Shown: positions 2,706 through 19,142 of the stretch, one piece after another
How the letters are laid out: every line of letters starts with the position of its first letter
Numbering within the stretch: the stretch's first letter is position 1
Origin: a virus
Reading direction: 5' to 3' (one strand)
DNA: 21,879 bases
IMG/VR virus record: IMGVR_UViG_3300008266_011995
Location: 1 to 21,879 of that record
Made by a program: the position numbers and the translations under genes
Notes under the pieces: model-generated
What the model was told of the DNA's origin: nothing
The model's database searches: none
The model's input: the letters and a program-made list of their open reading frames with translations, nothing else

Positions 2706-2714
2706 ATATTTATA
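2706..2714 (+). promoter_or_regulatory. ATATTTATA motif, copy 1
   Basis: The 9-mer ATATTTATA sits directly after the terminator T run and 20 bases before the ATG at 2735. It is one of seven identical copies in intergenic gaps. No TTTG box lies at the expected -33 position. Proposed as a phage promoter core; function inferred from recurrence only. Confidence 0.45.
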
Positions 2715-2734
2715 CGTAGTATATACATTATAAT

Positions 2735-4042
2735 ATGGCAGGATTATCTAAGGGCATGTCAATTAATGACATAGCTAATAAACATAAGTTGGATGTTGAT
2801 GTCCTTAAACAGGAATTAAAAAAAGGTATCAAAGTTGAAAAAGAACATACAGACGATGTAAAACGTGCTGCACGTATTGCTATGGATCATTTATTTGAAG
2901 ATCCAAAATATTATACTAAATTAGATAAATTAGGTTTAGAAAATATTAAAGTTAAAGTATATCCTGGAGGGTTAGGTGCCGATGTTGATTATGATGAAGA
3001 AGAATTTGAGCAGTTACCTACTAAATCAATTCCGTTAGACCAATTAACTTTAAATGAGCCTGCTGAAAAAATGAAGCAGCCTAAATCTAGAGCCACATTA
3101 AAGCAACTTATTAAATCTATCAAAAATGGTGAGGAAATACCTCCTATTATTGTTCGTAAAGTAAATAATAAGTATCAAATTTTAGATGGCCACCATAGAT
3201 ATTTTGCTTATAAAGCATTAGGTAAAGATAATATTAAAGCTGTTATAGTTGACCCTAAAGATGTTGAAATATTAAAAGAAAATTTAAATAAAGATTTAGT
3301 TAAAGAGTTTATGAAGCATGTAATGGGTGAACTTCAATTAAATAAGTTACCTAAAATTACATTATCCAACGATTCTCAAGAAGCTATAGATATGAAATCA
3401 TGGGGCGGTTATAGGCCAGGTACTAAATCAATTCATATAGTAACTGCTAAAAGACACCCAGCAGATATATTTAGAACATTAGCACATGAATTAGTTCACT
3501 ATAAACAAGATATAGAAAAACGCTTAAAACCAGATTCTGGTAAAACAGGTAGTGAGGATGAAAACGAAGCTAACTCTAGAGCAGCTGTTATAATGCGTAA
3601 TTTTGCTCAAGCAAAACCTAATTTATTTGAACACCTTATAAATGAAATAGGTGAAATATCAAATCCATTTGATTGGGGGTTTAGAGATGTTGATGATGAT
3701 GGAAACTATTTTTATAGATTTGACTCCCCCCAAAATGAATATTCAGTAGGTATTACATACAATGGTGATGATTCATATGAGTTATCCTTTACTACAGTAG
3801 GCGAAATGGGACAAGATACTGGAGAGGGAGTAGCTACACGTGTATTATCTACTGTAATGGAAGTAGCACTTGATTTTATTGATAGAGCTAATCCACAAGA
3901 AGTTATTTTTAGACCAATAAAAACTAAAGGTGAAGAAGATAGAAGACGTTTTAATGTCTATGGAATCTATTTAAAGAAAAATTTACCATCCAACTATAAT
4001 ATGATAACGCTAGGAGATACCTATCGTTGGATAAAAAAATAA
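2735..4042 (+). CDS. Multidomain polyvalent-type protein: ParB-like domain fused to HExxH metallopeptidase
   Basis: This 435-residue protein has at least three parts. Residues 34-63 hold an EHTxD...DHLxExPxYYxxL pattern that recurs in phage multidomain proteins (I believe DUF5661). Residues 98-175 look like a ParB/sulfiredoxin fold with the signature DGHHR at 151-155. Residues 245-285 contain HELVH (251-255), a zinc-metallopeptidase motif, followed by ENEAN (276-280), which could supply the third ligand. The C-terminal 120 residues are a separate alpha/beta domain I cannot name; a GNAT-like fold is possible. Fusions of ParB-like and zincin domains are typical of polyvalent proteins, which phages and conjugative elements are thought to deliver into the host with their DNA. 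It is the first gene after the receptor terminator. Domains are fairly clear; the biological target is unknown. Confidence 0.75.
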   Translation: MAGLSKGMSINDIANKHKLDVDVLKQELKKGIKVEKEHTDDVKRAARIAMDHLFEDPKYYTKLDKLGLENIKVKVYPGGLGADVDYDEEEFEQLPTKSIPLDQLTLNEPAEKMKQPKSRATLKQLIKSIKNGEEIPPIIVRKVNNKYQILDGHHRYFAYKALGKDNIKAVIVDPKDVEILKENLNKDLVKEFMKHVMGELQLNKLPKITLSNDSQEAIDMKSWGGYRPGTKSIHIVTAKRHPADIFRTLAHELVHYKQDIEKRLKPDSGKTGSEDENEANSRAAVIMRNFAQAKPNLFEHLINEIGEISNPFDWGFRDVDDDGNYFYRFDSPQNEYSVGITYNGDDSYELSFTTVGEMGQDTGEGVATRVLSTVMEVALDFIDRANPQEVIFRPIKTKGEEDRRRFNVYGIYLKKNLPSNYNMITLGDTYRWIKK

Positions 4043-4046
4043 AGTT

Positions 4047-4616
4047 ATGCAAGAGACAACTCTTAAAAAACAGTTTACTGAACGAGATCTACAACGTATC
4101 AGAAATTTAGCGCAAAAAAAAGTACATGAAAAGACAGTAACTTCTGTTGGTTATACTAAAGCCGAAGAACACCACGTTGAAGGTGATGTTTGGGAAGAAA
4201 ACGGCAAAACATGGACTATTAAAAGCGGTATAAAACGTACATTACGTAAAGTTGATGGCGTTGCTGTTCCAATACTGTGTCCAAAATGTTCAAAACCAAT
4301 GAAACACCATTTAGATAAAAAAATGTATGGTATACACCAAATGTGTATGTCTTGTGTTGTTACAATGGAAACAGATTTAAAAATGCAAGGCAAATATGAA
4401 GAATATGAAAAAAATATGCTTCGTAAAAACGCCCAATATTTTGCTGATAATATTACTACTGGTATTGATCAATTTTTAGACGATTTGATTAATGAAACAT
4501 ATGTGATGGAAGACGGTACTATTCAAAACTGGATAGGAAACGGTTTAGACAAAACAGAGGTTAAAAAACAAATCATGGATCGTATACAAAAATTAAAAGA
4601 TACACTTAATTCCTAA
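4047..4616 (+). CDS. Conserved phage protein with a zinc ribbon
   Basis: The product is 189 residues. It contains two CxxC pairs (C78/C81 in CPKC and C100/C103 in CMSC), as expected for one structural zinc ribbon. Upstream of it, residues 33-58 (SVGYTKAEEHHVEGDVWEEN, then GKTWTIK) form a pattern I recall from unnamed proteins of aquatic T4-like phages. The N-terminus is basic and helical (FTERDLQRIRNLAQKK), and the C-terminal half is helical and charged. The gene starts 4 bases after the ParB/metallopeptidase gene and is probably co-transcribed with it. The ribbon suggests binding to nucleic acid or protein, but no enzymatic motif is visible. Function unknown. Confidence 0.7.
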   Translation: MQETTLKKQFTERDLQRIRNLAQKKVHEKTVTSVGYTKAEEHHVEGDVWEENGKTWTIKSGIKRTLRKVDGVAVPILCPKCSKPMKHHLDKKMYGIHQMCMSCVVTMETDLKMQGKYEEYEKNMLRKNAQYFADNITTGIDQFLDDLINETYVMEDGTIQNWIGNGLDKTEVKKQIMDRIQKLKDTLNS

Positions 4617-4625
4617 ATATTTATA
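4617..4625 (+). promoter_or_regulatory. ATATTTATA motif, copy 2
   Basis: The 9-mer follows immediately after the upstream TAA stop and lies 17 bases before the ATG at 4643. It is identical to the other intergenic copies. Role as a promoter core is inferred. Confidence 0.45.
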
Positions 4626-4642
4626 GGCAATAACCTGAGCTT

Positions 4643-4918
4643 ATGACAGATAATATCTATACGGTTTTGATGACAGCCATTACAGTATTAGGTAGTGCCG
4701 CCGCTTTTCGATTTTATGAGAAAAAGTCAATGCGCAAAGAACGTGATGAAGAATTTATTCGCCACGACTGCAAAGATCGCATATCTAAATTAGAAGCATT
4801 ATTAGCTGAATCTGCTAGAGAAAAAGATGAATTACGTGGTATTGTTTTAAAATTAACTGAACAAGTGGCTGAACTACGTACTAAAGTTGAATTTTTTGAA
4901 AAATTTAAAAATGCATAA
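4643..4918 (+). CDS. Small membrane-anchored coiled-coil protein
   Basis: The product is 91 residues. Residues 5-22 form one hydrophobic helix (VLMTAITVLGSAAAF core). The rest is a charged helix with leucine spacing suggestive of a coiled coil (ISKLEALLAESAREKDELRG and onward). It was probably made as an inner-membrane protein with the helix bundle on one side. This layout fits an i-spanin or a holin-like accessory protein, but no family-specific motif is visible and no lysin gene is nearby. The next gene overlaps its last 8 bases, which suggests translational coupling. Confidence 0.6.
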   Translation: MTDNIYTVLMTAITVLGSAAAFRFYEKKSMRKERDEEFIRHDCKDRISKLEALLAESAREKDELRGIVLKLTEQVAELRTKVEFFEKFKNA

Positions 4919-5147
4919 ATTAACTGAATTATTAGGACTTGTTACTGAAGGTAAAATTGAATACCCAGCAGATCACGAACCAGGAATGCGTGTAACTAAA
5001 GGTGGCTCAATGTGTGCTAACTGTGAATATTGGGTTGAAAAAGGCAATTTATGTAACAACAAATATTGGTTACAATGGCACGATGGCGATGCTAAAATAC
5101 CAGCACCTGCTGACGAATATTGTTGTAATTGGTGGCATGCAAAATAA
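4911..5147 (+). CDS. Small cysteine-rich conserved phage protein
   Basis: I take the start at ATG 4911 rather than an in-frame ATG at 4887. From 4911 the product is 78 residues, overlaps the upstream gene by only 8 bases, and begins with MHKLTELLGLVTEG, a short amphipathic N-terminus like those of several neighbours. It has cysteines C35 and C38 (CANC), C48, and the pair C71/C72, surrounded by Trp/Tyr residues (YW, WLQWHDG, CCNWW). The pattern recalls small metal or iron-sulfur (HiPIP-like) proteins reported in phages, but the cysteine spacing differs from classical HiPIP. A zinc or Fe-S site is plausible; function unknown. Confidence 0.65.
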   Translation: MHKLTELLGLVTEGKIEYPADHEPGMRVTKGGSMCANCEYWVEKGNLCNNKYWLQWHDGDAKIPAPADEYCCNWWHAK

Positions 5148-5153
5148 CATAGT

Positions 5154-5795
5154 ATGAAAAAACAAGCAATTTATGAAGTTAATGATTGTGGATGTAACGG
5201 TCCTAAATTATTACTTAAGGAAGGATGGGAATTAATTACTATTTCTGAAGGACTTAAATATCATATTCAAGAAGGTAGAATGTTAGTTCATAACATTTAT
5301 CGTCCACTATCTGAAAACTATTTTTCTTTATTTCGTGAAGCACGCGAATTATACAATGAAGGTTTACTTTCCGTGACTGAAGATGATGCTGAATTACTTG
5401 AGTCAAATATCGGAGAATACGCGTTTTATAATGGCGTTAGAGTACCATTAGACTACCCAATATCAGTTGATGAATTAGTACAATTACATGAAGAATTAGA
5501 GCTTGAAGAAGCAGATAAAAAGAAAAAAACACCACCAATTGGCAAACCAAAACGTGGTGGTTCAAAAAAATTCTACGTTTACGTTAGAGATAAAGGTAAA
5601 ATTAAAAAAGTATCATTTGGTGATACAACAGGATTACGTGCAAAACTAAATAATCCCAAAGCACGTCAGGCATTCTCAAAACGCCACGACTGTCCAAATA
5701 AAAAAGATAGAACCAAAGCATCATACTGGAGCTGTCGTTTACCACGCTACGCTAAACTGTTAGGATTTAAAACATCATTTAGCGGTTATTGGTAA
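5154..5795 (+). CDS. Conserved phage protein with C-terminal Lys-rich mini-domain
   Basis: The 213-residue product has two parts. The N-terminal 110 residues contain a CGC motif (12-14) and an alpha/beta-looking segment with no recognised family. A Lys-rich linker (KKKKTPPIGKPKRGGSKK) leads into a C-terminal module of about 80 residues. That module contains FYVYVRDKGKIKKVSFGD, then HDCPNKKDRTKASYWSCRLP and YAKLLGF. I recall the same module from many large aquatic phages, where it is appended to otherwise unrelated proteins (a DUF5872-like module, from memory). Cys/His content suggests metal binding and the charge suggests DNA contact. The gene begins 6 bases after its upstream neighbour. Confidence 0.7.
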   Translation: MKKQAIYEVNDCGCNGPKLLLKEGWELITISEGLKYHIQEGRMLVHNIYRPLSENYFSLFREARELYNEGLLSVTEDDAELLESNIGEYAFYNGVRVPLDYPISVDELVQLHEELELEEADKKKKTPPIGKPKRGGSKKFYVYVRDKGKIKKVSFGDTTGLRAKLNNPKARQAFSKRHDCPNKKDRTKASYWSCRLPRYAKLLGFKTSFSGYW

Positions 5796-5798
5796 AAT

Positions 5799-6446
5799 AT
5801 GAATTATTTCCATAGTGAAAAATACATATGGATATTACCTGAAAGAACAGGCAGTAGAGCATTAGGACAATTACTTAATTTTTGGGTTGGAGAAAAATAT
5901 TGTAATAGTAATGCCCAAGAAATAGGGAGAAAAAAAGATATAAGGGGCAATTTTATTCAATTTTATAGTCACGACTGGAATCTAGTATATAAAGATGCTC
6001 AAGACTATACTTTTTGCCTTACAGTAAGAAACCCATACGCACGAATGTTAAGTTACTATAAAAGCATATTTTTGAAAAAAAATTGCAAAGACAAAGAGTG
6101 TAAATATACGTTTAGTGAGTTTGTAAAAACATCAATGATAGAAAATAAACGTATTTGGCATCTTGAATACGAAAATGTTTTCAACGAAACCAAAATTGAT
6201 TACATAATTCATCTAGAAAATATTGAAGAGGAACTTATGCAAGTTCCTATGATTCAACAAAAATACACAGAATCAGAAGAATTTCGTAAAGAGTGGGATA
6301 GGGTCATTAAAAATAATATATTTGATAAAGAATCTAAAAATAATTATACAAAAGTATCTAACGAAGATGCCCAAATTATATACGATTGTTTCCCAAAACA
6401 ATTTGAACTATTTGGTTATTCAAAAGATAGTTGGATGTACTTATAA
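5799..6446 (+). CDS. Sulfotransferase family protein
   Basis: The 215-residue product shows both PAPS-binding signatures of sulfotransferases: a P-loop-like PERTGSR at residues 14-20 and the 3'-phosphate motif RNPYARMLSYY at 77-87. The C-terminal tail (EDAQIIYDCFPKQFELFGY) is the usual end of the Sulfotransfer_2-like group. It would transfer sulfate from PAPS to a hydroxyl or amine on a sugar or other acceptor, which cannot be told from sequence. In the first 50 codons, four of five Ile are ATA and every Arg is AGA/AGG, unlike the CGT/ATT-rich neighbours. This suggests separate acquisition. It sits 3 bases after the previous gene and 9 before the next. Confidence 0.8.
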   Translation: MNYFHSEKYIWILPERTGSRALGQLLNFWVGEKYCNSNAQEIGRKKDIRGNFIQFYSHDWNLVYKDAQDYTFCLTVRNPYARMLSYYKSIFLKKNCKDKECKYTFSEFVKTSMIENKRIWHLEYENVFNETKIDYIIHLENIEEELMQVPMIQQKYTESEEFRKEWDRVIKNNIFDKESKNNYTKVSNEDAQIIYDCFPKQFELFGYSKDSWMYL

Positions 6447-6455
6447 TTATATAAA

Positions 6456-6716
6456 ATGAAACCATACACAGATATAGAAAATAACGACTCATATATCATC
6501 CGTGAATTTAATGAAAATATTGATCCCATTGAATTGCTGTGGCACCGTGATGATGAAGATCGTACAATTGAAATAATAGGACACACTGACTGGCAGCTAC
6601 AATTGGAAAACTGTTTGCCAACTTCGCTGAATAAACCCATATTTATACCGAGACATACTTGGCATCGTGCTATAAAAGGTACGGGGACATTACGTTTAAA
6701 AATATATAAGCGTTGA
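6456..6716 (+). CDS. Small cupin-like protein
   Basis: The product is 86 residues. It carries ELLWHRDDEDRTIEI (26-40) and FIPRHTWHRAIKGTG (63-77), an arrangement that looks like the two conserved strands of a mini-cupin or jelly roll. H30, E34, H67 and H70 are possible metal ligands. I recall similar WHRDxEDR proteins from T4-like cyanophages, without known function. It lies directly behind the sulfotransferase and its TGA stop overlaps the TTG start of the next gene. A role in modifying or sensing small molecules, perhaps linked to sulfotransfer, is only a guess. Confidence 0.6.
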   Translation: MKPYTDIENNDSYIIREFNENIDPIELLWHRDDEDRTIEIIGHTDWQLQLENCLPTSLNKPIFIPRHTWHRAIKGTGTLRLKIYKR

Positions 6717-7873
6717 TTAAATTAACAGACATACTATTAGAAACATTAACTGAAAAGAAGCTGTGTCCTAAAGGCAAAGCTTATTATAATCGTCGCATAG
6801 CAGCTGGTGAAAAACCGTCCGCATATCTATCAGGGCGCGCAGTTAAAGTATGTAAAGGATTAATGAGTGAAGAAATTGACCCATCAGAAGCATTTAATGA
6901 TACAGATGCTATTAATACATTAGTTAATAGAAAACGTGACTTAGCTTTCATAGTTAAAGACTCTAATACAGACGAAAATTGGGCAAATATTCAAAAAATT
7001 ATCAAGGATAATGACATTAGAATAATGTATGTTAAGGGAAATCCCCACCATGCATATATTGCTTATTTACCTGGTAGTGAAAATAAAGCAACTCAATTAA
7101 AAGATTTAGCTGAGAAATATGACGGATATTTATCCGCTCAAGCATCTAAAGAAGATGCCATTAAAATGGGTCGTTTATTAGGATATAAGGAAGATAAAAT
7201 AAAGGATTTTATTAATAAAAATTTTCCTAACGATCCTATAGACGAATCATTACGCGATTGGTTTAAAAAAGAAGATTGGGTTCGTATTGATACTCAAGGC
7301 AACATTACAGGTCCTTGTGGTACAATGAAAAAAGGTAAAGCAACTACACGTTGTTTGCCTCGTGCCAAAGCAAATCGCTTGACTAAAGCTGAACGCGCTG
7401 CTACTGCTCGTAAAAAAGTAGCTGGTTCTAAAAAAGGAAAACAATTTGTTCCTAATACTGAAAAAGCAAAAGTAAAACTTAATAAAGAAAGTTTAGATGA
7501 AATGAATTTAAAACAAGGACTAGCAGCAGCTGGTATTGCTTTAAGTTCACTCCTAGGAACTCCAGATACTGCAAAAGCAGCAGCACCAACATCTATATCT
7601 CAAGTAGCGGCAAAAAGCATTATTGAAAAAGTAGTTAAAGGATTTGAAAAGGAAGGATATAGTATTGATTTCCTTGAAACAGCAAAATATAAAAATTTTG
7701 AAAATGCTGGTGAAGATGATATTAAAGTAGAATTAGGAGCAGCAAAAACAGAATCAGCAGCTAGATTGGTGATGATGCAATTTATTAAAATTAATAATTT
7801 AGATCGCAATAAAACCTTATTTATGTTCAACCCAAAGGAAGGACAATTCGCCATAATATATATAAAAAAATGA
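6713..7873 (+). CDS. Multidomain phage protein with internal signal-like segment
   Basis: The start is a TTG overlapping the upstream TGA stop by 4 bases. It gives MIKLTDILLETLTEKK, an amphipathic start shared with neighbours. The 386 residues show four parts. Residues 17-51 form a Cys/Lys-rich module (LCPKGKAYYNRRIAAGEKPS ... VCKGLM). Residues 58-172 form an alpha/beta domain with FIVKDSN, IMYVKGNPHHAYIAYL and GRLLGY. Residues 182-250 form a basic module (DWVRIDTQGNITGPCG ... RCLPRAKA). Residues 264-386 start with MNLKQGLAAAGIALSSLLG and AKA, like a bacterial signal peptide, then a small C-terminal domain. Such mosaics are common in large aquatic phages and may be virion-packaged. No catalytic motif is visible. 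Confidence 0.7.
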   Translation: MIKLTDILLETLTEKKLCPKGKAYYNRRIAAGEKPSAYLSGRAVKVCKGLMSEEIDPSEAFNDTDAINTLVNRKRDLAFIVKDSNTDENWANIQKIIKDNDIRIMYVKGNPHHAYIAYLPGSENKATQLKDLAEKYDGYLSAQASKEDAIKMGRLLGYKEDKIKDFINKNFPNDPIDESLRDWFKKEDWVRIDTQGNITGPCGTMKKGKATTRCLPRAKANRLTKAERAATARKKVAGSKKGKQFVPNTEKAKVKLNKESLDEMNLKQGLAAAGIALSSLLGTPDTAKAAAPTSISQVAAKSIIEKVVKGFEKEGYSIDFLETAKYKNFENAGEDDIKVELGAAKTESAARLVMMQFIKINNLDRNKTLFMFNPKEGQFAIIYIKK

Positions 7874-8802
7874 AACATTCAGAAATAAAAGAAATGATTC
7901 GCCGTGTAGTAAGAGAAAGAAAACTTACAAAAGCGGAAGAAAAGAAAAAAGAAGATATCGTTAAAGGAATGAAAAAATCCTTTAAAGGTGATAAAGCATC
8001 TATGTATGCTATTGCTACTGCTAAAGCTAAAAAAATAGCTGAAGCTGATGATAGTATTAAAGTTAATCAACCTGATTATAAAGGTACAATTCGTAAAGTA
8101 GAAGGTGGGTATCAATTATATGATGTTAATGGTAATGTAGAAGATAAAGAAGTAGGACCTTTTAAAACAATGAGTAGTTTGATGTCATATTATGATATTA
8201 GTATGGATCAATTAAATGAAGCTAAAGGTACTGAATTGACTAGTAAAATATTCGATATTGGTTCTACACTTAAAAAAGTAGAAGCTGCTATGGATTTTGG
8301 TATGGATCAAGACCCACAAATAATTAAAGGTTTAGATCAAGTATACGATGAATTAATTAATGTTTTAGCTCTTATTGAAAAAGATAGAGAAGAAAATAAA
8401 TTTGTTAATGAGGATATTGATATTGGACATCAAGATGATGAACCAGGAATGCTTAAAAATGAATTAGCTAGAACAGCTAAAATGGCTGCTATGCTATATA
8501 AGAAAATTAAAGCATACGGTGATACAGGTGCTGAAATAGATTTCCCACAATGGTGGCAATCAAATATTATTAAAGCTAAAGACTATTTACAAGGTGCTTT
8601 TGATTATTTAGATGGTGAAGAAAGTGTAGCTAAAATTGACGCTACAATGGATGCTTTAAAATTTGAAGAAAAAGACCCATTAGATGTTGTTGTAGCTGAA
8701 AAGAAAGGTAAAGATTTAGATGGCGATGGCGATGTAGATAGTGAAGATTATTTAAAAGCAAGAGATATTGCTATTAAAAAAGCGCAAGCTAAAAAGAAAT
8801 AA
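7870..8802 (+). CDS. Multidomain virion-associated-type protein with C-terminal EF-hand loop
   Basis: The ATG overlaps the upstream TGA (ATGA). The 310-residue product starts with an amphipathic helix (MKHSEIKEMIRRVVRERK). It continues with the Lys-rich module LTKAEEKKKEDIVKGMKK ... MYAIATAKAKKIAE (19-58), a form I recall from many T4-like phages. A middle region follows, then DDEPGMLKNELARTAKMAAM ... DFPQWWQSNIIKAKDYLQ (189-241), another recurrent phage segment. The C-terminus contains a textbook calcium-loop pattern, DLDGDGDVDSED at 282-293 (DxDxDGxVxxxD), followed by a basic tail. A structural or packaged-protein role in the head is plausible, but no function is established. Confidence 0.7.
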   Translation: MKHSEIKEMIRRVVRERKLTKAEEKKKEDIVKGMKKSFKGDKASMYAIATAKAKKIAEADDSIKVNQPDYKGTIRKVEGGYQLYDVNGNVEDKEVGPFKTMSSLMSYYDISMDQLNEAKGTELTSKIFDIGSTLKKVEAAMDFGMDQDPQIIKGLDQVYDELINVLALIEKDREENKFVNEDIDIGHQDDEPGMLKNELARTAKMAAMLYKKIKAYGDTGAEIDFPQWWQSNIIKAKDYLQGAFDYLDGEESVAKIDATMDALKFEEKDPLDVVVAEKKGKDLDGDGDVDSEDYLKARDIAIKKAQAKKK

Positions 8803-8804
8803 TT

Positions 8805-9284
8805 ATGGAATTTCAATCAAAAGAAGAATTAGTAGCACACATTAGAGGTAGAGTGCGTCAAATGATGGGCAAACAATCAGAACAAGCCTATCAAGGTGAT
8901 CCTAACTCTCCTATGAATGTGATGCTCTATAGATTCCCTGAATTGCGTCAGGCATTAGAAAAGTTAATGACAATGCAATTTAGAATATTTGTTGACGATA
9001 TTCAGTGGGTTGCTCCTAAACCAACAACGTTTAGAATTATTCTTGCAAATGGACAAACATTTACTTTAATTTGGAATACAGAAGATTTTATTGCTAAAAT
9101 AGCAGGGGTAAAATATGATATGTTAACGCTTAAGGAACGTGAAAGAGCCACTAAAGAAGTAGCTGAATTGTTACAATATGGCCCAATTAATGCTAACTTA
9201 TCTGGTGATGATTTAGCACAACAAAACCTAACCCCAGCTAAAGGCGAGCCAGTTAATCCTGCTCCACCTCCAGGACAAGTATAA
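8805..9284 (+). CDS. Conserved phage protein, unknown function
   Basis: The 159-residue product starts 2 bases after the previous stop. It begins with MEFQSKEELVAHIRGRVRQM, an amphipathic helix like those of neighbouring products. The middle (residues 45-110) alternates strands and helices, with FPELRQALEKLMTMQFRIFV and TFRIILANGQTFTLIW. The last 25 residues are disordered and Pro-rich (NPAPPPGQV). I do not recognise a family. By position it is the last gene of the 4643-9284 run, and the shared N-terminus suggests it belongs to the same virion-associated set. Confidence 0.65.
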   Translation: MEFQSKEELVAHIRGRVRQMMGKQSEQAYQGDPNSPMNVMLYRFPELRQALEKLMTMQFRIFVDDIQWVAPKPTTFRIILANGQTFTLIWNTEDFIAKIAGVKYDMLTLKERERATKEVAELLQYGPINANLSGDDLAQQNLTPAKGEPVNPAPPPGQV

Positions 9285-9288
9285 TAAA

Positions 9289-9320
9289 TTTGGAAACCCC
9301 AAATATTATTATTACTTTCA
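9289..9320 (+). promoter_or_regulatory. Possible host-type promoter with TTTGG palindrome
   Basis: TTTG at 9289-9292 and a weak TACTTTCA box at 9313-9320 are 20 bases apart, loosely matching the Bacteroidota TTTG/TAnnTTTG pattern. TTTG is part of the palindrome-like TTTGGAAACCCCAAA (9289-9303), close to the element at 11046-11060. It would drive the exonuclease gene. The -7 match is poor. Confidence 0.3.
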
Positions 9321-9341
9321 TAATTAACTTACATATTTGTT

Positions 9342-10100: not shown

Positions 10101-10111
10101 CGAAACATTAC

Positions 10112-10120
10112 ATATTTATA
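10112..10120 (+). promoter_or_regulatory. ATATTTATA motif, copy 3
   Basis: The 9-mer ends 3 bases before the ATG at 10124, much nearer than most copies. If it is a promoter core, the transcript for 10124 would be leaderless or start inside the gene, so this copy could also mark an RNA processing or translation signal. Confidence 0.4.
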
Positions 10121-10123
10121 TTC

Positions 10124-10483
10124 ATGGAAATCGGTCAATTAAAACAAAACATTATCACTGAGGTAAGGAGACTTGTTAAAGAACAAGCTATCCCTATCAG
10201 TCGTACTGAATTAGTTGACAAGATTAAAGCTACAGATCCTCGCAATTCAGGTAGAGGTGAATTCTTTACAGTAACATTTGTTAAAAGAACAGATGGTTCT
10301 ACAAGAACAATGAATGCTCGTTTAGGTGTAAGACGCTATTTAAAAGGTGGAGATTTACCATACGACGCAGCTGCTAAAGAATTATTACCTGTATTCGATG
10401 CACAAAAAGGAGACTATAGAATGATTGATCTACGTAGTATGATTTCTGCTAAAGTAGGTGGTCAAGAATATATTGTAAAATAA
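10124..10483 (+). CDS. SH3-like beta-barrel phage protein
   Basis: The 119-residue product begins with MEIGQLKQNIITEVRRLVKE, the amphipathic N-terminus seen in several neighbours. The remainder (FFTVTFVKRTDGSTRTMNAR, LGVRRYLKGG, DYRMIDLRSMIS, VGGQEYIVK) fits the small SH3 beta-barrel fold proteins often annotated in phages. In those homologues the barrel is usually the whole protein; here it has a helical tag of about 25 residues in front. A nucleic-acid-binding or virion role is possible; no activity is known. Family call is from recalled pattern, not from a search. Confidence 0.65.
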   Translation: MEIGQLKQNIITEVRRLVKEQAIPISRTELVDKIKATDPRNSGRGEFFTVTFVKRTDGSTRTMNARLGVRRYLKGGDLPYDAAAKELLPVFDAQKGDYRMIDLRSMISAKVGGQEYIVK

Positions 10484-11081: not shown

Positions 11082-11558
11082 ATGAATATATTTTATATTA
11101 ATACAGATCCAGTCGTTGCAGCACAAGAACTATGTGACGACCATATCCGCAAGATGCAAATTGAATCTGCTCAAATGTTATGTACAGCACATTGGGCTGT
11201 TGGTAGTGAAGCACCATACAAACGTGCCCATTTCAACCACCCATCAACTAAATGGACACGCGAATCAATTCAACATTATAGGTGGCTTGTAGAACATGGT
11301 CTGGAAGTATGTCGTCAATTTACTTTACGTTATGGAAAACACCATAAAACACAAGATGTACTTGAATGGTGTCGTGATAACGAACCTAATCTTCCTGATA
11401 ATGGATTTACACCACCACCTCAAGCAATGCCTGAAGAATATAAAAATGAAGATACAATAGAGGCATATAAAACTTATTATATTCAAGATAAAATAAAAAT
11501 TAAAGGATTAAATTGGAACAAATTAAACAACAAACCGATATGGATAAAAGAATTTTAA
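11082..11558 (+). CDS. Conserved phage/bacterial protein, HCDxHxxKM-type family
   Basis: The 158-residue product opens with NIFYINTDPVVAAQELCDDH, then IRKMQIESAQMLCTAHW, and later HFNHPSTKWTRES, RYGKHHKT, GFTPPPQAMPEEYK and AYKTYY. I recall this pattern as a widespread family in T4-like phages and aquatic bacteria without firm function. Its ending (AYKTYYIQDK ... KPIWIK) vaguely resembles the end of the T4 pyrimidine-dimer glycosylase group, which hints at DNA repair but is not proof. The many His, Trp and Cys residues suggest a metal or nucleotide site. The remnant start of the next gene (ATG 11540) lies inside its last 19 bases. Confidence 0.7.
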   Translation: MNIFYINTDPVVAAQELCDDHIRKMQIESAQMLCTAHWAVGSEAPYKRAHFNHPSTKWTRESIQHYRWLVEHGLEVCRQFTLRYGKHHKTQDVLEWCRDNEPNLPDNGFTPPPQAMPEEYKNEDTIEAYKTYYIQDKIKIKGLNWNKLNNKPIWIKEF

Positions 11559-12731
11559 TTATTGGAGCTGGAGTTGCAGGGCTTACCTGAAGAGGTAATG
11601 ACAGGTATGCTAGGTGCTGGTGGTTGGTCTGATGGTAAATTAACTTACCATACAGCAATTGGTGGTCAATTATCAAAGTATTGTGGTGAGGAAAAAGCCA
11701 TGCAATTAATGGATCAAGTTATTAGTAACTTCAGACGTTTCCACCCAAAACCAGAAGAAATATTCATGTCTGATCCTCAGGAAGAACCTGAATTTATTAA
11801 ACCATACTTTGGTTTGAGAATGTTTCCTGTATGGCACATTGGATCAAATTATTTACATGAGATTGCTAAAACATGGTATCAATATTTAGTTGATAAAGGG
11901 GTTGCTTACGATAAATTAATATTCGCAGTAGGTAAATCAGGTATTGATTTTGCTCAACAATTATCTGATACTTACAAGTTACCAACTGAACCCAAATCAG
12001 TACAAATTGGTGTTCGATTTGAAGCACCACAAAAATATTTTCAAAAATTAATAGATATAAGTTATGATTTTAAACTTTACCAAAAATTTGATAATGTTTC
12101 TCTTCGCAGTTTTTGTACTAACAATAATGCTGCATATGTTGCTGTCGAAGAAACCTATGGCGACGTAAGTTATAATGGCCACGCTAAAAAAGGAGAAGAA
12201 TTTAGAAATGATATGACTAATTTTGGTATTTTAATGGAAATTAAGGGTATTGAAGATCCATTTAAATGGTCACGTGATGTAGTACAGAAATGTCAAACAT
12301 TAAAACTAGATTTAGGTGCTGATTGGTCAGAACATGGTGGTGGATTATATTACTCACCAAGTAGAGAAATAAGCACTACATCAGAATATGCTCTTATTAA
12401 AGCAACTAAAGTAGGTGATTTGGGTGTATTTAAAAATGCTTTTGGAGAATATGCTGATTATATAATGAATTTTATTGACAATATGAACAGTGTATTTAAT
12501 TTTGGTGATGATTGGGGAATGTATATTCCTGAGGTAAAGTACCTATCACCTGAACCACTAGTTAATTATCACGATTTATCATTAACAACATATCCAAATG
12601 TACACTTTGTAGGTGATGCTTTATCAGCTCGTGGTATTACAGTTTCAGGAGCACATGGTATTTATGTTGCTGAAAAGTTAATCCAACACAGCCATCTTGT
12701 AGAATTAACACAACTTTTGGAAACAGAATAA
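11540..12731 (+). pseudogene. FAD-dependent oxidoreductase, N-terminal Rossmann region broken (deletion plus frameshift)
   Basis: The body (open from TTG 11562, first ATG 11598) reads LGAGGWSDGKLTYHTAIGGQ near its start and VHFVGDALSARGITVSGAHG near its end. These are the middle and C-terminal FAD-contact motifs of COG2509-like oxidoreductases. No dinucleotide-binding glycine motif lies in this frame. It lies in another frame just upstream: ATG 11540 gives MDKRILIIGAGVAGLT, a perfect FAD-binding start, and then hits TGA at 11588. In intact relatives tens of residues (helix A, strand 2 with its ribose-binding acid) separate the two parts. A deletion that also changed frame explains this best. 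Without that region FAD binding should fail. It could also be an assembly collapse. Confidence 0.75.
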
Positions 12732-12746
12732 TTGATTGTACCTTTA
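12716..12746 (+). promoter_or_regulatory. Bacteroidota-type promoter for the 12751 gene
   Basis: TTTG at 12716-12719, a 19-base spacer and TACCTTTA at 12739-12746 fit the Bacteroidota pattern. The box ends 4 bases before ATG 12751, and the sequence CTTTATATTATG is identical to that before 11082. The -33 box lies inside the end of the upstream gene. Confidence 0.55.
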
Positions 12747-12750
12747 TATT

Positions 12751-13014
12751 ATGGAAGAACGTAGAGGCAGACCAAAAACAATAGTACATACAGATCATCC
12801 ACGCAAATTTACTCGTACATACGAAGATGAATTTACTGTTGAAACGTGGAAATTTGATTTAGATAAATTTGATAAGGGTCCTATTGAAGTAGATATTAAA
12901 TATAAAGCTGGTGCTGAGAAAAAATTAAAACAAATAGCTAAGGAAGTAAAGCAGCAAAAGAAGATTGAAAAACAAATGAAAAAAATAAACGAAAAAAATG
13001 GAAAGAAAAATTAA
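12751..13014 (+). CDS. Small basic protein, unknown
   Basis: I place the start at ATG 12751, 4 bases after the promoter box, rather than at a TTG at 12736 in the same frame. The 87-residue product begins MEERRGRPKTIVHTDHPRKF. It has a central acidic/aromatic stretch (YEDEFTVETWKFDLDKFDKG) and ends in a Lys-rich helix (KKLKQIAKEVKQQKKIEKQM). RGRPK resembles an AT-hook core (GRP), so minor-groove DNA binding is possible. No family is recognised. The next gene starts 17 bases before this one ends. Confidence 0.55.
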   Translation: MEERRGRPKTIVHTDHPRKFTRTYEDEFTVETWKFDLDKFDKGPIEVDIKYKAGAEKKLKQIAKEVKQQKKIEKQMKKINEKNGKKN

Positions 13015-13279
13015 AACAACAGAAGGACACACATTAGTTATTTCTCAGACAACACGTTTAGGTCATGATATTACAGACAAAAAAGACCCTAAAGCAAATG
13101 AAAAGATTTGGGTATTACATAATGTAGAAGGTCCTGCCTTAATTACACCAGATAATAAAAAAGAATATTATTTCTGGGGCATTTATCAAGGCAATACAGT
13201 TGAAGTACTTAAAGATTTAAAACGTAATCATACAGGACTTCCACCAGCTAAAAATCCATTATTTAAAACTAGATTATAA
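12998..13279 (+). CDS. Small conserved phage protein, unknown
   Basis: The 93-residue product overlaps the previous gene by 17 bases and its TAA shares one base with the next ATG (TAATG), so the three genes are probably translationally coupled. It contains WVLHNVEGPALITPDNKKEY and FWGIYQG, a beta-rich motif (HN.EGPA....yyfwG) that I recall from unnamed phage proteins. There is no membrane segment, cysteine pair or catalytic signature. Function unknown. Confidence 0.6.
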   Translation: MERKIKTTEGHTLVISQTTRLGHDITDKKDPKANEKIWVLHNVEGPALITPDNKKEYYFWGIYQGNTVEVLKDLKRNHTGLPPAKNPLFKTRL

Positions 13280-13809
13280 TGAAGATAGGTTTTGCAGGTA
13301 CAATGTCAGTAGGTAAAACTACATTAGTTAAAGCACTAGCTGAATTGCCTGAATTTAAAGATTATTATGTTGCTACTGAACGTAGCAAGTATTTACGTGA
13401 TTTAGGTATTCCGTTAAATACTGATTCTACAATACCTGGTCAAATGATATTTTTGGCTGAACGTGCTAGCGAAGTATTGCGTGATAATGTACTGACAGAT
13501 CGTACTATATGGGATGTATGTGCATTTACTTTAAGTGCACAATCCATAAGCAAATACGAAAAAAATACATTTGTAGACGCCGCTTTACTGTTAAAAGACT
13601 ATTATGATATTGTATTTTATGTTAGTCCTCGTGGTGTTAAAGTTGAAGATAACGGCGTTAGAACAACAGATTTAACGTATAGATTCAAGATCGATAAAAC
13701 AATACGTGAGCTGCTTGACGAATATCCACCACAACGATTAGTGGAAATTGAAGGAACAACAGAGGAGCGCATTAGCATTGTGTTAGAAACATTTAATAAA
13801 TATTTATAA
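13279..13809 (+). CDS. P-loop NTPase, AAA_28 / nucleotide-kinase-like
   Basis: The 176-residue product has a Walker A loop GTMSVGKT at 7-14, directly after the first strand (KIGFAG). Residues 34-35 (ER in VATERSKYLRDLG) and D74-R75 (LTDRTIWD) correspond to the substrate and DRx motifs of thymidylate and deoxynucleoside kinases. A hydrophobic strand (YDIVFYVSP) and Arg-rich lid-like segment (GVRTTDLTYRFK) follow. This group (AAA_28, NadR-like) phosphorylates nucleosides, nucleotides or related small molecules with ATP. In a phage a dNMP-kinase role in supplying DNA precursors is likely, but the substrate is not readable. It shares one base with the upstream stop codon. Confidence 0.8.
   Translation: MKIGFAGTMSVGKTTLVKALAELPEFKDYYVATERSKYLRDLGIPLNTDSTIPGQMIFLAERASEVLRDNVLTDRTIWDVCAFTLSAQSISKYEKNTFVDAALLLKDYYDIVFYVSPRGVKVEDNGVRTTDLTYRFKIDKTIRELLDEYPPQRLVEIEGTTEERISIVLETFNKYL
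13800..13808 (+). promoter_or_regulatory. ATATTTATA motif, copy 4
   Basis: The 9-mer overlaps the last codons and stop of the kinase-like gene and lies 20 bases before ATG 13829. That position marks the switch from enzyme genes to head-assembly genes. Confidence 0.45.
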
Positions 13810-13828
13810 CGGACACAAACAACAAACA

Positions 13829-14901
13829 ATGAAAAAAAACGAATTAAAAGAATATATTAAATCACGTGTTCGTGAAGCATTATATGTAGGTAAAGCTGCT
13901 GAAGATGAATTGCAAAAAGATAAAAGATTTAGTGCTTTACCTCCTACTGAAAAAACCAATGCTGTTTCAAAATTAAGAATGGGTGGATCTGTTGAGTTAG
14001 GTGAAACTGAACTCATGGAAATGGCACGTAAAGCAGCCACATTTAAAGTAGCAGCTGATTTTAAGGAAAAAGCTAAAGGTATTAAAACTGGTGGTCCAAT
14101 TAGTCCTAAAAAATTAGAGGATATTATAGCACCACTGGTCCTGCAATTGCTGCTGGTGTTGGTTTTGAAGGTAAAATGCCCCGTATATATCCTATATTCG
14201 CTGCTTTAATTGATGTTGGTGCTCTTGTAGGCACAGAACAAGAAAAAACAGAAGATATCCCTGAAACACCTGAAAATGAAGACGAGGATATTGAAGATAT
14301 TTTAGATCCTGAAGATACTGTTGAAGATGAAGGTGAAGATGAATTTGAAAAAGAACCTGGTGCAACAGATATTGAAAAAGCACCTCCAATAACAATGGAT
14401 CCTGTATCACAAGCATCAGTTGAATTTGTTACAAACAACGATAGATTAATTCAATCTATTATCAATAATTATAAAGAATCAAGATCACGTTTGGGTGCTA
14501 TTCGTGAGGAAGAAGGCGATTTAAATGCTGCTGACTATAAAAAAGCACTTAAGAAAAGTAAAGAATTAGCTACAGATGTATTAACACAAAAAATAGATAC
14601 ATTAGTAGATAAAATCAAAGAATTAGAACCATCAGTACAAGATAAAGTACTTAAATCACTTGATTTCAAATTCAAATCAGTAAATGCTGATTATCTTTCT
14701 AAAATTGTAGCTAAAAAATTAGGTAAAACTATAGCTCCATCTGCCCCTGAAAAACAAGTAGACGTAGATATTGATATTGAAGATATCGATGATGAAATAA
14801 TGGAAGATACAGGTGTTGAAGATGTAAGCTATGAACCAACGTTCAAAGATTATGAAAACATATATGAGCGTATGCAAAAACTTGTAAACTATAAAGGATA
14901 A
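13829..14901 (+). CDS. Acidic coiled-coil-type virion protein, frameshifted near 14131
   Basis: Two overlapping frames appear to be one gene. Frame one (13829-14209) starts MKKNELKEYIKSRVREALYV and is sensible up to KKLEDIIAP, then becomes an unlikely Leu/Val run. Frame two, open from 14110 and ending at 14901, becomes sensible at TGPAIAAGVGFEGKMPRIYP (from 14134). Adding one base near 14131-14134 gives a continuous 357-residue protein reading IIAP-TGPAIAAG. The repaired protein has an amphipathic N-terminus, a Gly/Ala-rich segment, a very acidic region (EDEDIEDILDPEDTVEDEGE), helices, and another acidic stretch near the C-terminus. Acidic helical proteins in this position may be scaffold or head-internal proteins. 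No classic slippery heptamer is seen, so mutation or assembly error is likelier than programmed shifting. Confidence 0.65.
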
Positions 14902-14905
14902 TTGT

Positions 14906-15625
14906 ATGAAAAAAATATTAGATATTATTTCTAAAAACAAAAAACCGTTATTAATAATTGCTATTATTATTTTATTATTTGTTTTACTTGGTCTTTTTAA
15001 TAACAAGTATCATAAAAAAGAAATTAAAGTATTAAAGCAACAAATTGAACAGAAAGAAGAGGAGTTTAAAGAAGTAATGGCTGAAAAAGAGCGTTTACAA
15101 GATTCATCTGAATTTTATGAAGCAGCTGCCTATAAAGCAGATGCTGCAGTTGTTCAAGCAAAAGCTAAAGCAGAAAAATTACGTAAAGAAAAAGAAGCAG
15201 CATTAGCTGCACTAAATAATCTTCCCAAAGACGTTATTGATTCATTTTTTGTAAAACGCTATGTTCATGTAGAAAAAATCGGTGTTGATTTAGCTCTTGA
15301 TCAAAATGTAGGTAATGAAGTAGTGAAAGAATTAACTGAAAAAGATTTTTTAGTTACTGAAGTAAGTATAGAAAAAGACCAAAACAAATTATTAAGTGGC
15401 CAAGTAGATACATTAAAAGTAGCACTCAATTTTAATAAATCAGCATTAAATAAAGCCGATTCAGCTATTAAAATTAGAACTCAACAATTACAAATATCAA
15501 AAGATCTCGTTAGTATATTAGAAAAAGATCTTAAAACAGCAAAGAAAAAAGCATTTTGGGGCCGTATTAAAGGCGTTGGTGTAGGTGTTGCTGCTGGTAT
15601 AGTAATCGGTGTTATTGTTAAATAA
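14906..15625 (+). CDS. Two-segment membrane coiled-coil protein
   Basis: The 239-residue product has an N-terminal transmembrane helix (residues 14-31, PLLIIAIIILLFVLLGLF). Long charged helices follow, with coiled-coil character (35-105 and 160-215), and a Gly/Val-rich hydrophobic C-terminus (GRIKGVGVGVAAGIVIGVIV, 219-238). Lys-rich residues on the N-terminal side suggest that end lies in the cytoplasm. The layout fits an inner-membrane spanin-like subunit or another lysis or envelope protein, but no lipobox partner is visible. It begins 4 bases after the frameshifted gene and ends 42 bases before terminase. Confidence 0.6.
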   Translation: MKKILDIISKNKKPLLIIAIIILLFVLLGLFNNKYHKKEIKVLKQQIEQKEEEFKEVMAEKERLQDSSEFYEAAAYKADAAVVQAKAKAEKLRKEKEAALAALNNLPKDVIDSFFVKRYVHVEKIGVDLALDQNVGNEVVKELTEKDFLVTEVSIEKDQNKLLSGQVDTLKVALNFNKSALNKADSAIKIRTQQLQISKDLVSILEKDLKTAKKKAFWGRIKGVGVGVAAGIVIGVIVK

Positions 15626-15634
15626 TAATTTCTA

Positions 15635-15670
15635 CATGCACCTATATATTTATATATAAACACGTGCATG
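15635..15670 (+). promoter_or_regulatory. Hairpin covering the terminase start codon
   Basis: CATGCAC (15635-15641) pairs with GTGCATG (15664-15670), and TATATA (15643-15648) pairs with TATATA (15653-15658) around a TTTA loop. The terminase ATG (15668-15670) lies in the outer stem, so folding of the RNA could block translation. It is seen only as pairing potential. Confidence 0.35.
15646..15654 (+). promoter_or_regulatory. ATATTTATA motif, copy 5
   Basis: The 9-mer lies 13 bases before the terminase ATG, in the apical part of the hairpin 15635-15670. If transcription starts just downstream of it, the outer stem would not be complete in that RNA. Confidence 0.45.
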
Positions 15671-17248
15671 AGCGATCAGAATATTAAGGATATAATTAAG
15701 CAGGAGTACGTTAAATGCATGACGGATCCTGCACATTTCATGAAAAAATATTGTATGATCCAACACCCAACTAGGGGTCGCATACAATTCCATTTATATC
15801 CTTTCCAAGAAAAAGTACTATATCAATTCCAAAAAAATAATTACAACATAGTACTTAAATCTCGTCAGTTAGGTATCTCTACTCTTGTAGCTGGTTTTTC
15901 ATTATGGATGATGTTATTCCATAAAGATAAAAACGTGTTGTGTATTGCAACTAAGCAAGACACTGCTAAAAACATGGTTACTAAGGTAAGATTTATGTAT
16001 GACAATCTACCTTCGTGGTTAAAAGGTGCTGAGAAACCTTTGGAAAACAACAAACTTTTACTTAAATTGGCAAATGGCTCTCAAGTAAAAGCTGTTTCGG
16101 CTGCTAGCGATGCTGGTAGATCTGAAGCAGTATCTTTACTGATAATAGATGAGGCTGCGTTCATTGAAAGTATTGAAGAGATATTTGCTTCTGCTCAACA
16201 AACCTTAGCTACTGGTGGTGGATGCATAGCATTGTCTACTCCTAATGGTACAGGAAACTGGTTTCACCAAACATGGCAGAAAGCAGAAATAGGAGACAAT
16301 TCATTTGTACCTATTCGTTTACCATGGAGTGTACATCCTGAACGAAATCAAGAATGGAGGGTTAGACAAGATAGTGATTTGGGTTTAAGGATGGCTGCTC
16401 AAGAGTGTGATTGTGATTTTGCAACTTCAGGGGATACAGTATTTGAACCTGAAATTATAGGATGGTTTGAAGCTAATTTGTTAGATCCACTTGAAAAAAG
16501 AAGTGTAGATGGTAACTTATGGATATGGGAACAACCCGATTATAGCAAAAGTTATCTAGTAGTAGCCGACGTAGCTAGAGGTGATGGTAAAGACTATTCT
16601 GCGTGTCATGTGTTTGATATTGAAAATGCAACACAAGTAGCAGAATATAGAGGACAAATTGGTACTCGTGATTACGGCCATATGTTAGTAGGTATAGCAT
16701 CAGAATATAATGATGCTTTGTTATCAATAGAAAATGCTAACGTAGGTTGGGATACAGTACAAACAGCCATTGATAGGGGATATAGAAATTTATATTATTC
16801 TCCAAAACAAGATGCATTAACATCTGATCAATGGGCTAGACGATATGAAAGTGATGGAAATTTAGTGGCTGGTTTTACTACATCTGTAAAAACTAGACCA
16901 CTAATGATTGAAAAATTTAGAGAATATGCACATGAAAAATCATGTATTATTCGCTCAAAACGATTAATAGAAGAAATGAAGGTTTTCATTTGGAAAAACA
17001 GTAAAGCCCAAGCACAAGACGGATACAATGACGACTTAGTAATGTCATTTGCTATGGGATTATATTTACGTGATACAGCATTGCGTTTTAGAAAACACAA
17101 TATGGAACAAGATCGCGCAACCTTAACAGGATTTTCAGTAGATAAAGGATTTATGAATCCATATGCTGCTAGAGGCCATAATGCACCTAACGCATGGCAA
17201 ATGCCTACGGATCATGGCAATGAAGATCTTACTTGGTTATTAGGATAA
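15668..17248 (+). CDS. terL: Terminase large subunit, T4 gp17-like
   Basis: The 526-residue product is the DNA-packaging motor and headful nuclease. The ATPase half has a variant Walker A, SRQLGIST (65-72), Walker B LLIIDE (157-162) with catalytic E162, and coupling motif STPNGTG (190-196). The RNase H-fold nuclease half has VVADVARGDGKDYS with D301, LLSIENANVG with E355, and YNDDLVMS with D455/D456, giving the expected acidic triad. Length fits gp17-type terminases (about 520-610). It docks on the portal, whose gene follows at once. No small terminase is recognised nearby. Translation may be affected by the hairpin over its ATG. Confidence 0.95.
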   Translation: MSDQNIKDIIKQEYVKCMTDPAHFMKKYCMIQHPTRGRIQFHLYPFQEKVLYQFQKNNYNIVLKSRQLGISTLVAGFSLWMMLFHKDKNVLCIATKQDTAKNMVTKVRFMYDNLPSWLKGAEKPLENNKLLLKLANGSQVKAVSAASDAGRSEAVSLLIIDEAAFIESIEEIFASAQQTLATGGGCIALSTPNGTGNWFHQTWQKAEIGDNSFVPIRLPWSVHPERNQEWRVRQDSDLGLRMAAQECDCDFATSGDTVFEPEIIGWFEANLLDPLEKRSVDGNLWIWEQPDYSKSYLVVADVARGDGKDYSACHVFDIENATQVAEYRGQIGTRDYGHMLVGIASEYNDALLSIENANVGWDTVQTAIDRGYRNLYYSPKQDALTSDQWARRYESDGNLVAGFTTSVKTRPLMIEKFREYAHEKSCIIRSKRLIEEMKVFIWKNSKAQAQDGYNDDLVMSFAMGLYLRDTALRFRKHNMEQDRATLTGFSVDKGFMNPYAARGHNAPNAWQMPTDHGNEDLTWLLG

Positions 17249-17250
17249 AA

Positions 17251-17259
17251 ATATTTATA
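17251..17259 (+). promoter_or_regulatory. ATATTTATA motif, copy 6
   Basis: The 9-mer fills the 14-base gap between the terminase stop and the portal ATG at 17263, ending 3 bases before the ATG. The same spacing is seen at 10112-10120. Confidence 0.4.
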
Positions 17260-17262
17260 CAC

Positions 17263-19125
17263 ATGATAGACACATCTTTATTTGGTAGGTTAAAAAGATT
17301 ATTTTCAACTGACGTTATTATTCGTAATGTTGGTGGTAATCAAGTATCAGTAATAGACACTGATCATATTCAATCAACAGGAGTAGTACAAACCAATATG
17401 TACCCTGAAAGATACCAGAGAATATATACTGGTGGTTTAGGTACATACATTGGTAATGCTCCTTACTCTAATTATACAATATTAAGACCGCAGTTATACA
17501 ATGACTATGAAGTAATGGACGGTGATCCAATCGTAGCATCTGTATTGGATATTGTAGCTGACGAATCTACACTTAAAAATGGTGCAGGTGAAGTGTTAGC
17601 TATTAAATCACCTGACGAAAATATTCAAAGAATATTATATAATTTATTCTACGATATATTAAATATCGAATTTAACCTTTGGGGTTGGGTTCGCTCAATG
17701 TGTAAGTATGGTGATTTTTATCTACATTTACACATCTCAGAAAAATATGGTGTTTATCAAGTAATACCTCTTAACGTTTACAACGTTATCCGTGTAGAAG
17801 GACTTGACCCTAAAAACCCAGCTTATGTGGAGTTTAGAGTTGAACCAAATGCATCATATACAGGTGTATTAGGAATGAGTGATAAAACAAGTGTTAAGTT
17901 TGAAAACTATGAAATAGCAAACTTTAGATTATTAGGTGACTATAACTTCCTTCCTTATGGCCGTTCATATATTGAACCAGCTCGTAAGATATTTAAGCAA
18001 TTAGCATTGATGGAAGATGCAATGTTAATTCACCGTATTTTAAGAGCACCGCAACGTCGTGTTTATTATGTTGATACAGGAAATATTCCACCGAATGAGA
18101 TTCCTACATTCATGGAAAAATTAAAAACGCAAACACAACGTACTCCATTTACAGATCCTAAAACAGGTGAATATAATTTACGTTACAACATGATGAACGT
18201 AAATGAAGATTTCTATGTACCTGTTAGAGGTGGAAATACAAATACTAAAATTGAAACATTACCTGGTCTTGAATATAATGCAATTGAAGACGTAGTATAT
18301 TTAAGAGATAAAATGTTAGCTGCTATGAAAGTTCCTAAGGCATTCTTAGGATATGAAGCTGACGTTGAAGGTAAATCTACATTAGCACAACAAGATATTC
18401 GTTTTGCTCGTACAATTGAGCGTATTCAACGTATAGTAGTGAGTGAATTAACTAAAATTGCGTTAGTACACTTATATGCGCAAGGATATACTGACGAGAA
18501 TTTAACGAATTTTGAGTTGGAATTAACTACACCATCAATTGTATACGATCAAGAACGTATTGCATTGATGAAGGAAAAAGTTGATCTAGCTAAAAATATT
18601 ATGGATGCTAGCTTGTTCCCATCAGACTATATCTACGATTACTTATTCCATATGAGTGAAGACAAATATGATGAGTTACGTGATCAAGTAGTTGAAGACA
18701 AAAAGCGCCAATTCCGTTTATCTCAAATTGAAAATGAGGGTAACGACCCAGTTATGAGTGGTCAATCATACGGAACACCACATGATTTAGCATCACTATA
18801 CGGAAAAGGACGTAACGGAGTAGGTGTACCGCCAGCATATGATGAAACAAATCCTGTTGGAAAACCACAAGAAAAAACATCAGTGTATAATACACAGAAA
18901 CGCACATTGGGTAAAGATCCATTAGGAAAAAGTATAGATATCCAACCAGACTCACCTAAACCCGCTGAACCTAAAAATGGTTCACCTCTAGCACTTGAAA
19001 GTACTAAGGCTATATACATGCAGAATAAACAAATGCTTGAGGAAATGTTTAAAAAATCTAATGTATTTGACAAAGAGAACACTGGAGATTCGCTGCTGGA
19101 TGAATCAAATATTAAAGATATATAA
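17263..19125 (+). CDS. Portal protein, T4 gp20-like
   Basis: I take ATG 17263 (MIDTSLFGRLKRLFSTD), not the in-frame TTG at 17233. The extra ten residues from TTG lie in the terminase gene and spell the ATATTTATA motif. The 620-residue product shows the T4-type portal core: DGDPIVASVLDIVADEST, then WGWVRSMCKYGDFYLHLH, a region with ISEKYGVYQVIPLNVYNVIR, then DAMLIHRILRAPQRRVYYVD and VPKAFLGYEADVEGKSTLAQ. It forms the dodecameric ring at one head vertex for DNA entry and tail joining. The C-terminal 120 residues are Pro/Gly-rich and probably flexible. Unlike T4, no sheath and tube genes separate it from terminase. Confidence 0.93.
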   Translation: MIDTSLFGRLKRLFSTDVIIRNVGGNQVSVIDTDHIQSTGVVQTNMYPERYQRIYTGGLGTYIGNAPYSNYTILRPQLYNDYEVMDGDPIVASVLDIVADESTLKNGAGEVLAIKSPDENIQRILYNLFYDILNIEFNLWGWVRSMCKYGDFYLHLHISEKYGVYQVIPLNVYNVIRVEGLDPKNPAYVEFRVEPNASYTGVLGMSDKTSVKFENYEIANFRLLGDYNFLPYGRSYIEPARKIFKQLALMEDAMLIHRILRAPQRRVYYVDTGNIPPNEIPTFMEKLKTQTQRTPFTDPKTGEYNLRYNMMNVNEDFYVPVRGGNTNTKIETLPGLEYNAIEDVVYLRDKMLAAMKVPKAFLGYEADVEGKSTLAQQDIRFARTIERIQRIVVSELTKIALVHLYAQGYTDENLTNFELELTTPSIVYDQERIALMKEKVDLAKNIMDASLFPSDYIYDYLFHMSEDKYDELRDQVVEDKKRQFRLSQIENEGNDPVMSGQSYGTPHDLASLYGKGRNGVGVPPAYDETNPVGKPQEKTSVYNTQKRTLGKDPLGKSIDIQPDSPKPAEPKNGSPLALESTKAIYMQNKQMLEEMFKKSNVFDKENTGDSLLDESNIKDI

Positions 19126-19133
19126 TAAAATAC

Positions 19134-19142
19134 ATATTTATA
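19134..19142 (+). promoter_or_regulatory. ATATTTATA motif, copy 7
   Basis: The 9-mer lies after the portal gene and 17 bases before the GTG start at 19160, the same spacing as copy 2. Confidence 0.45.

Follow-up and report, generated by a model that had tools for sequence, protein, structure and literature searches.

A repeated AT-rich motif as the probable late promoter core in T4-like relatives of Flavobacterium phage immuto

The 9-mer ATATTTATA is a real, strand-specific signal in the window, by which we mean the whole 21.9-kb stretch of viral DNA analyzed here, and its likeliest function is that of a divergent late promoter of the T4 type. From sequence comparison, we consider it probable that, in a clade of T4-like relatives of Flavobacterium phage immuto, ATATTTATA represents the late promoter core. 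This explanation is favored because the motif is strand-specific, lies in gaps between genes, is followed by an A at a fixed distance and is segregated from the early promoter class, and because a gp55-like sigma protein is predicted in the same phages. In the proposed mechanism, the host RNA polymerase together with a phage-encoded gp55-like sigma domain-2 protein would open the promoter DNA at the element (A/C)-12 T-11 A-10 T-9 T-8 T-7 A-6 T-5 (A/T)-4, with neither a -35 nor a -33 element, and transcription would start at the A 12 bases past the first base of the motif. An ATG located at that A (a 3-nt gap) would give a leaderless mRNA, and an ATG further away would give an mRNA with a short A-rich leader.

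Occurrence of the motif in the window

The window carries genes for a portal (PF07230) and a terminase (PF03237) that identify it as part of a T4-like phage genome. Among isolates, Flavobacterium phage immuto is closest to it, with identities of 60.6% for the terminase and 55% for the portal; the next nearest terminases are those of Mel-JY01 and the uncultured phage LR756508, and that of RM378 is far. The hosts of the motif-bearing clade are probably Bacteroidota, given its relatedness to immuto.

Eight copies of ATATTTATA are found on the gene (+) strand of the window and none on the minus strand, against a mean of 1.51 and a maximum of 5 on both strands together in 100 dinucleotide-preserving shuffles. 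Words with one mismatch occur at chance level (40 versus 36 expected), and the ATATTTATA word is therefore specific. Our recount reproduced the eight exact copies that had been listed, all on the + strand and seven of them 3–20 nt before a start codon (20, 17, 3, 20, 13, 3, and 17 nt in coordinate order). All seven had been described as lying in gaps; six are indeed wholly inside the noncoding DNA, which totals 484 bases, and the seventh, at 13800, runs over the last codons and the stop of an open reading frame (ORF).

The first putative late promoter core (2706..2714, +) directly follows a terminator-like hairpin and T-run (2680..2705, +) and precedes the gene at 2735 (DUF5661/ParB-like), with a predicted +1 at 2718. 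The second (4617..4625, +; predicted +1 at 4629) precedes the gene at 4643, and both copies are kept in the sister contig L324. The copy at 10112..10120 (+) would place +1 at 10124, the A of an ATG (leaderless class), and its 3-nt gap is identical in the sister contig L011. The copy at 13800..13808 (+) overlaps the 3' end of ORF 13279-13809 and stands ahead of the gene at 13829. Two further copies precede the T4-like terminase large subunit and portal gp20, both downstream late genes. The one at 15646..15654 (+; predicted +1 at 15658) lies upstream of the terminase gene (15668..17248, +; PF03237, phrog_2), and its sister match is in L018, the L011 alignment ending short of that place. The one at 17251..17259 (+) would put +1 at 17263, the first base of the portal start codon ATG (leaderless class; gene 17263..19125, +; PF07230, E 1.1e-67), and its 3-nt gap is identical in L009-L018. 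The last copy (19134..19142, +; predicted +1 at 19146) precedes the gene at 19160, which has a GTG start, and is kept in L011 and L018. The ATATTTATA copies of the window thus recur at corresponding places of sister contigs. The remaining copy (6639..6647, +), correctly described before as lying inside a gene, is within ORF 6456-6716, with the next start (6713) 65 nt downstream. It is shared with L011, where it also lies within conserved coding sequence, and may be either a promoter or a chance occurrence.

Strand and placement in related phages

The IMG/VR record consists of this 21.9-kb fragment, and the genome-wide test of the motif was therefore made on relatives. Counting by strand and in noncoding DNA, as had been proposed, revealed a strong bias: 80 related terminase-bearing contigs hold 165 forward and 6 reverse copies, and ATATTTATA ranks first among the 9-mers in 28.5 kb of noncoding sequence of relatives (170:6 by strand). 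The main tolerated variant in noncoding DNA is ATATTTATT, at 71:2. The motif is distributed 16:1 by strand in immuto, with 14 of the 16 copies in gaps. A second clade carries CTATTTAT(A/T), and a clade fetched independently via the sigma protein has CTATTTATA (81:1).

In contigs with mixed counts, off-strand copies are mostly intragenic and gap copies face the next gene; the exceptions, with off-strand copies in gaps, are contigs L233 and L236. In Mel-JY01, one gene on the minus strand is preceded by a motif copy on that strand. The motif is gene-oriented and upstream of late genes, as expected for a T4-type late promoter, and the flank logo of 163 copies likewise shows no conserved -35 element, only weak T-richness. 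The T4 likeness had initially been seen in the complement, in the reverse orientation to the genes. This idea was not supported, since gap copies face their gene with few exceptions and the likeness, apart from two central substitutions, is seen when the motif is read in the direct orientation. An association with terminators (13.6% versus 2.8% against all starts) largely vanishes with length-matched gaps and was not used.

Proposed early and late promoter classes in immuto

A second repeated motif in immuto consists of GTTGC and, about 20 bases on, TATATTTAGGTATCAATAATTAAAACA, which is a host-like -33/-7 layout; the well-formed early boxes read TATATTTAG with a -33 GTTG. The Bacteroidota primary promoter type appears to serve as the early class in this phage. 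The two classes occupy different parts of the genome, with 14 early-type gap copies versus 1 late-type copy at 60-78 kb, and 0 versus 25 at 78-160 kb. The late motif is the mark of the structural block, the host-like -33/-7 motif that of the early block. A long repeated early-type promoter with the conserved initial transcribed sequence GGTATCAATAATTAAAACA was also observed in L090 (immuto 60-74 kb) and L107-L122.

Spacing to the start codon

The distance between motif and start codon was surveyed for 360 motif instances ahead of 63 downstream gene families. Gaps of 0, 1, 2, 3, 4, 5, 6, 7, and 8 nt were counted 1, 3, 0, 91, 19, 9, 4, 0, and 4 times, respectively, and gaps of 10-20 nt are common. 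Many of the 91 instances with a 3-nt gap are copies from few families, so the family count (nine of the 63) is the safer one. Position 12, which lies 12 bases after the first base of the motif, is A in 88% of leadered copies; the CTATTTAT clade replicates this (93%), and Mel-JY01 has a purine there in 10 of 12 cases. Position 13 is A in 82-93% for the main motifs where the ATG is distant. The ATATTTATT variant keeps the A at position 12 (86%) and not that at position 13.

A single coordinate is thus the A of the ATG in the gap-3 class and the fixed A in the leadered class, which fits a transcription start. The gap edge together with the fixed A leads us to infer that +1 is the A 12 bases after the first base of the motif, and genes with a 3-nt gap, such as the portal gene and the gene at 10124, would have leaderless late mRNAs. 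Starts with a gap of 0-1 nt number four. In two of them another ATG follows in frame, at a gap of 21 (L011) and 4 (L178); the instance at IM 1336 has a further ATG at codon 10, and that at L135 2787 opens a 60-aa ORF whose reality is doubtful. In L324, another gap-1 ATG opens just 33 codons. The mRNAs of F. johnsoniae are mostly leadered, 87% of them by over 10 nt (PMC6847099). This and the small number of gap-3 families count against the late-promoter explanation.

Comparison with the late promoters of T4 and Aeh1

Before the papers on T4 and Aeh1 were consulted, the conserved A and the gap edge had already set the register. The T4 late box TATAAATA spans -13 to -6, with a T-13 that is poorly conserved, most T4 relatives not keeping it (PMC1524935); the motif clade resembles most T4 relatives in having no conserved -13. 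Numbered with +1 at position 12, the motif is A-12 T-11 A-10 T-9 T-8 T-7 A-6 and agrees with T4 at five of seven positions (-12, -11, -10, -7, and -6). Its core, (A/C)TATTTAT, departs from the TATAAATA consensus at -9/-8, where it has TT and T4 has AA. Like the T4 late promoter, it is a -10-like element alone, with no -35 element, and precedes late genes for head and packaging functions; unlike it, the motif adds T-5 and A/T-4, and many of its starts would have no leader. The late promoter of Aeromonas phage Aeh1 is CTAAATA from -12 (PMC1524935), so that the CTATTTAT clade shares its C at -12 and differs from its AA at -9/-8. The motif would work like a T4-type late promoter but is, by this comparison, a variant of it.

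A candidate late sigma factor

The T4 late promoter works with gp55, gp33, and the gp45 clamp. A search for a gp55-like sigma factor, which the initial annotation had suggested, yielded a candidate in immuto, Mel-JY01, and LR756508; the gene is absent from the window and from the 66-kb sister contig, both of which are fragments, and no homologue was retrieved with the Mel-JY01 sigma as query. The immuto protein, immuto26A_153 (immuto 78174-78872), is the only match to a gp55 profile in that genome (phrog_234, E 0.008), and the phrog_12791 and Sigma70_r2 profiles have no match there. In sequence comparison, its similarity to gp55 is not above that of shuffled sequences, which score equally, and HMM and profile-profile comparisons with gp55 were not significant. 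Conserved members of the family occur in immuto, Mel-JY01, LR756508, and many IMG/VR contigs, and 21 of 31 members show weak matches to Sigma70_r2 (Pfam region 2).

We used an AlphaFold model of a homologue of immuto26A_153 (pLDDT 75.7) for structural comparison. The top chain in VIA-align is 7d7c_F, T4 gp55 in a promoter complex (rmsd 5.7 over 123 residues), with a Z of 9.2, a Z of 9 being moderate for a helical protein. Nearly all of the best 50 VIA-align matches listed are sigma factors, and the top BFVD hits include phage sigma factors; a Foldseek search of the PDB yielded nothing below E 0.75. On the predicted model, the candidate carries the sigma region 2 fold.

T4 gp55 accommodates promoter bases in pockets, that for -12 being formed by Y97, that for -9 by N13/H95, and that for -8 by T99 (PMC7892883). 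In a MAFFT alignment at about 21% identity, the equivalents of Y97 and F86 are kept (F86 is Y in Mel-JY01), and Y97, which stacks on A-12, is conserved in all rows. N13, H95, and T99 are replaced by T, F/Y, and Q/G (S in Mel-JY01), respectively. At 21% identity, it is suggestive that the -9 and -8 pockets differ where the promoter differs. The candidate resembles T4 gp55 in its predicted region 2 fold, with 7d7c_F as best structural match, and differs from it in the three replaced pocket residues, in lacking recognizable sequence homology above shuffles, and in having about 95 additional residues that form a C-terminal domain.

No recognized relative of this C-terminal domain was found, and the C-terminus shows no obvious sliding-clamp-binding motif. 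A gp45-type clamp was not found by PF09116, which gave a match in T4 only and misses distant clamps. The extra C-terminal helices suggested a fused gp55-gp33 sigma, to which a question raised in PMC2988020 also points; no clear sigma-4 or gp33 match was obtained, and we do not propose such a fusion.

The candidate sigma may well be the protein that reads the ATATTTATA motif. In a more extended proposal, whose chances we consider about even, a gp55-type sigma with an extra C-terminal domain would have changed its -9/-8 pockets, and throughout a large aquatic T4-like group the late promoter would have shifted with them from TATAAATA to (A/C)TATTTAT. Certain genes, such as portal, would have leaderless late mRNAs, in hosts whose mRNAs are mostly leadered.

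Alternative explanations

Besides the phage-specific late promoter that we favor, the initial annotation had offered an RNA processing site and a translation enhancer. In the former case, a nuclease would cut a few bases past AUAUUUAUA on read-through RNA from upstream and leave short leaders or none. A cut at a set distance would be consistent with the fixed A, the strand bias, and the edge at 3 nt, but the register and the C/A alternation match the T4 and Aeh1 late promoters (PMC1524935), and the motif is separated by genome block from the early promoter class. The predicted presence of a gp55-like sigma protein, and strong terminator-like hairpins ahead of some copies (e.g., that at 2706), also speak against processing, which we consider unlikely.

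A host sigma-A promoter, used by unmodified host polymerase through a degenerate Bacteroidota -7 box (TAHHTTTG), is a still less probable source of the signal. The late motif is an AT-rich box about one turn upstream of the predicted +1, like the box of the primary Bacteroidota promoter; TATTTATA shares T-12, A-11, T-8, and T-6 with the consensus, and +1 would be position 13, one base from our predicted site (PMC6847099). The nearly invariant T-7 and G-5 of the -7 box (PMC6847099) are absent from the motif, as is a -33 element. Separate TATATTTAG boxes of the early class, with their -33 GTTG, also stand elsewhere in the immuto genome, against this explanation.

Bacteroidota do without Shine-Dalgarno sequences to our knowledge, and an AU-rich word near the start codon might for that reason raise initiation. 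The motif does lie near starts, and A-rich leaders favor initiation in F. johnsoniae (PMC6847099), but such a translation element fits poorly and is highly improbable, because the spacing is inconstant (3 nt in some cases and 8-40 nt in others), position 12 keeps its A in a fixed place relative to the motif and not to the ATG, a minority of genes carry the motif, and A-richness needs no exact 9-mer.

Implications

If ATATTTATA is a late promoter core, the T4 late transcription system extends to an abundant aquatic phage group, in which a search for TATAAATA would miss the (A/C)TATTTAT type. Promoter bases -9/-8 and sigma pocket residues would offer a case of natural co-variation, and the motif would serve as a genome-wide predictor of late transcription starts for phages with little functional annotation. 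The 3-nt class, if true, would be an unusual and regular use of leaderless mRNA in a lytic phage. The motif was not found reported in the open-access literature searched.

Additional observations

Positions 1-2658 of the window hold an 885-aa ORF for an outer-membrane beta-barrel (Oar/TonB-receptor-like), with 70% identity to a protein from a MAG labelled Odoribacter. This ORF is missing upstream of the ParB-like gene in L324, whose similarity to the window begins at 2699, inside the T-run after the hairpin. The stretch is probably host DNA, joined through a real junction or an assembly chimera. Among the phage genes, a sulfotransferase-like gene (PF03567) lies at 5799-6446, and a weak match to a pyrimidine dimer glycosylase (PF03013) at 11082-11558.

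In RM378 (L094, L100, and L101), which encodes its own region-2/region-4 sigma, noncoding DNA ahead of genes shows a weak bias to TATTTAAA/TTATTTAA (21:8 and 22:9). Mel-JY01 (PP395634, 22183-22410; L095) has a gene for ribosomal protein S21, located between those for the prohead protease and the capsid; its presence is of interest alongside unusual leader use. Finally, many late genes, including those at 10124 and 13829 of the window and others in relatives, share the N-terminal stretch K-x-x-E-L-K-x-x-I-x-x-x-V-R/K, perhaps a signal for head targeting or one related to the protease.
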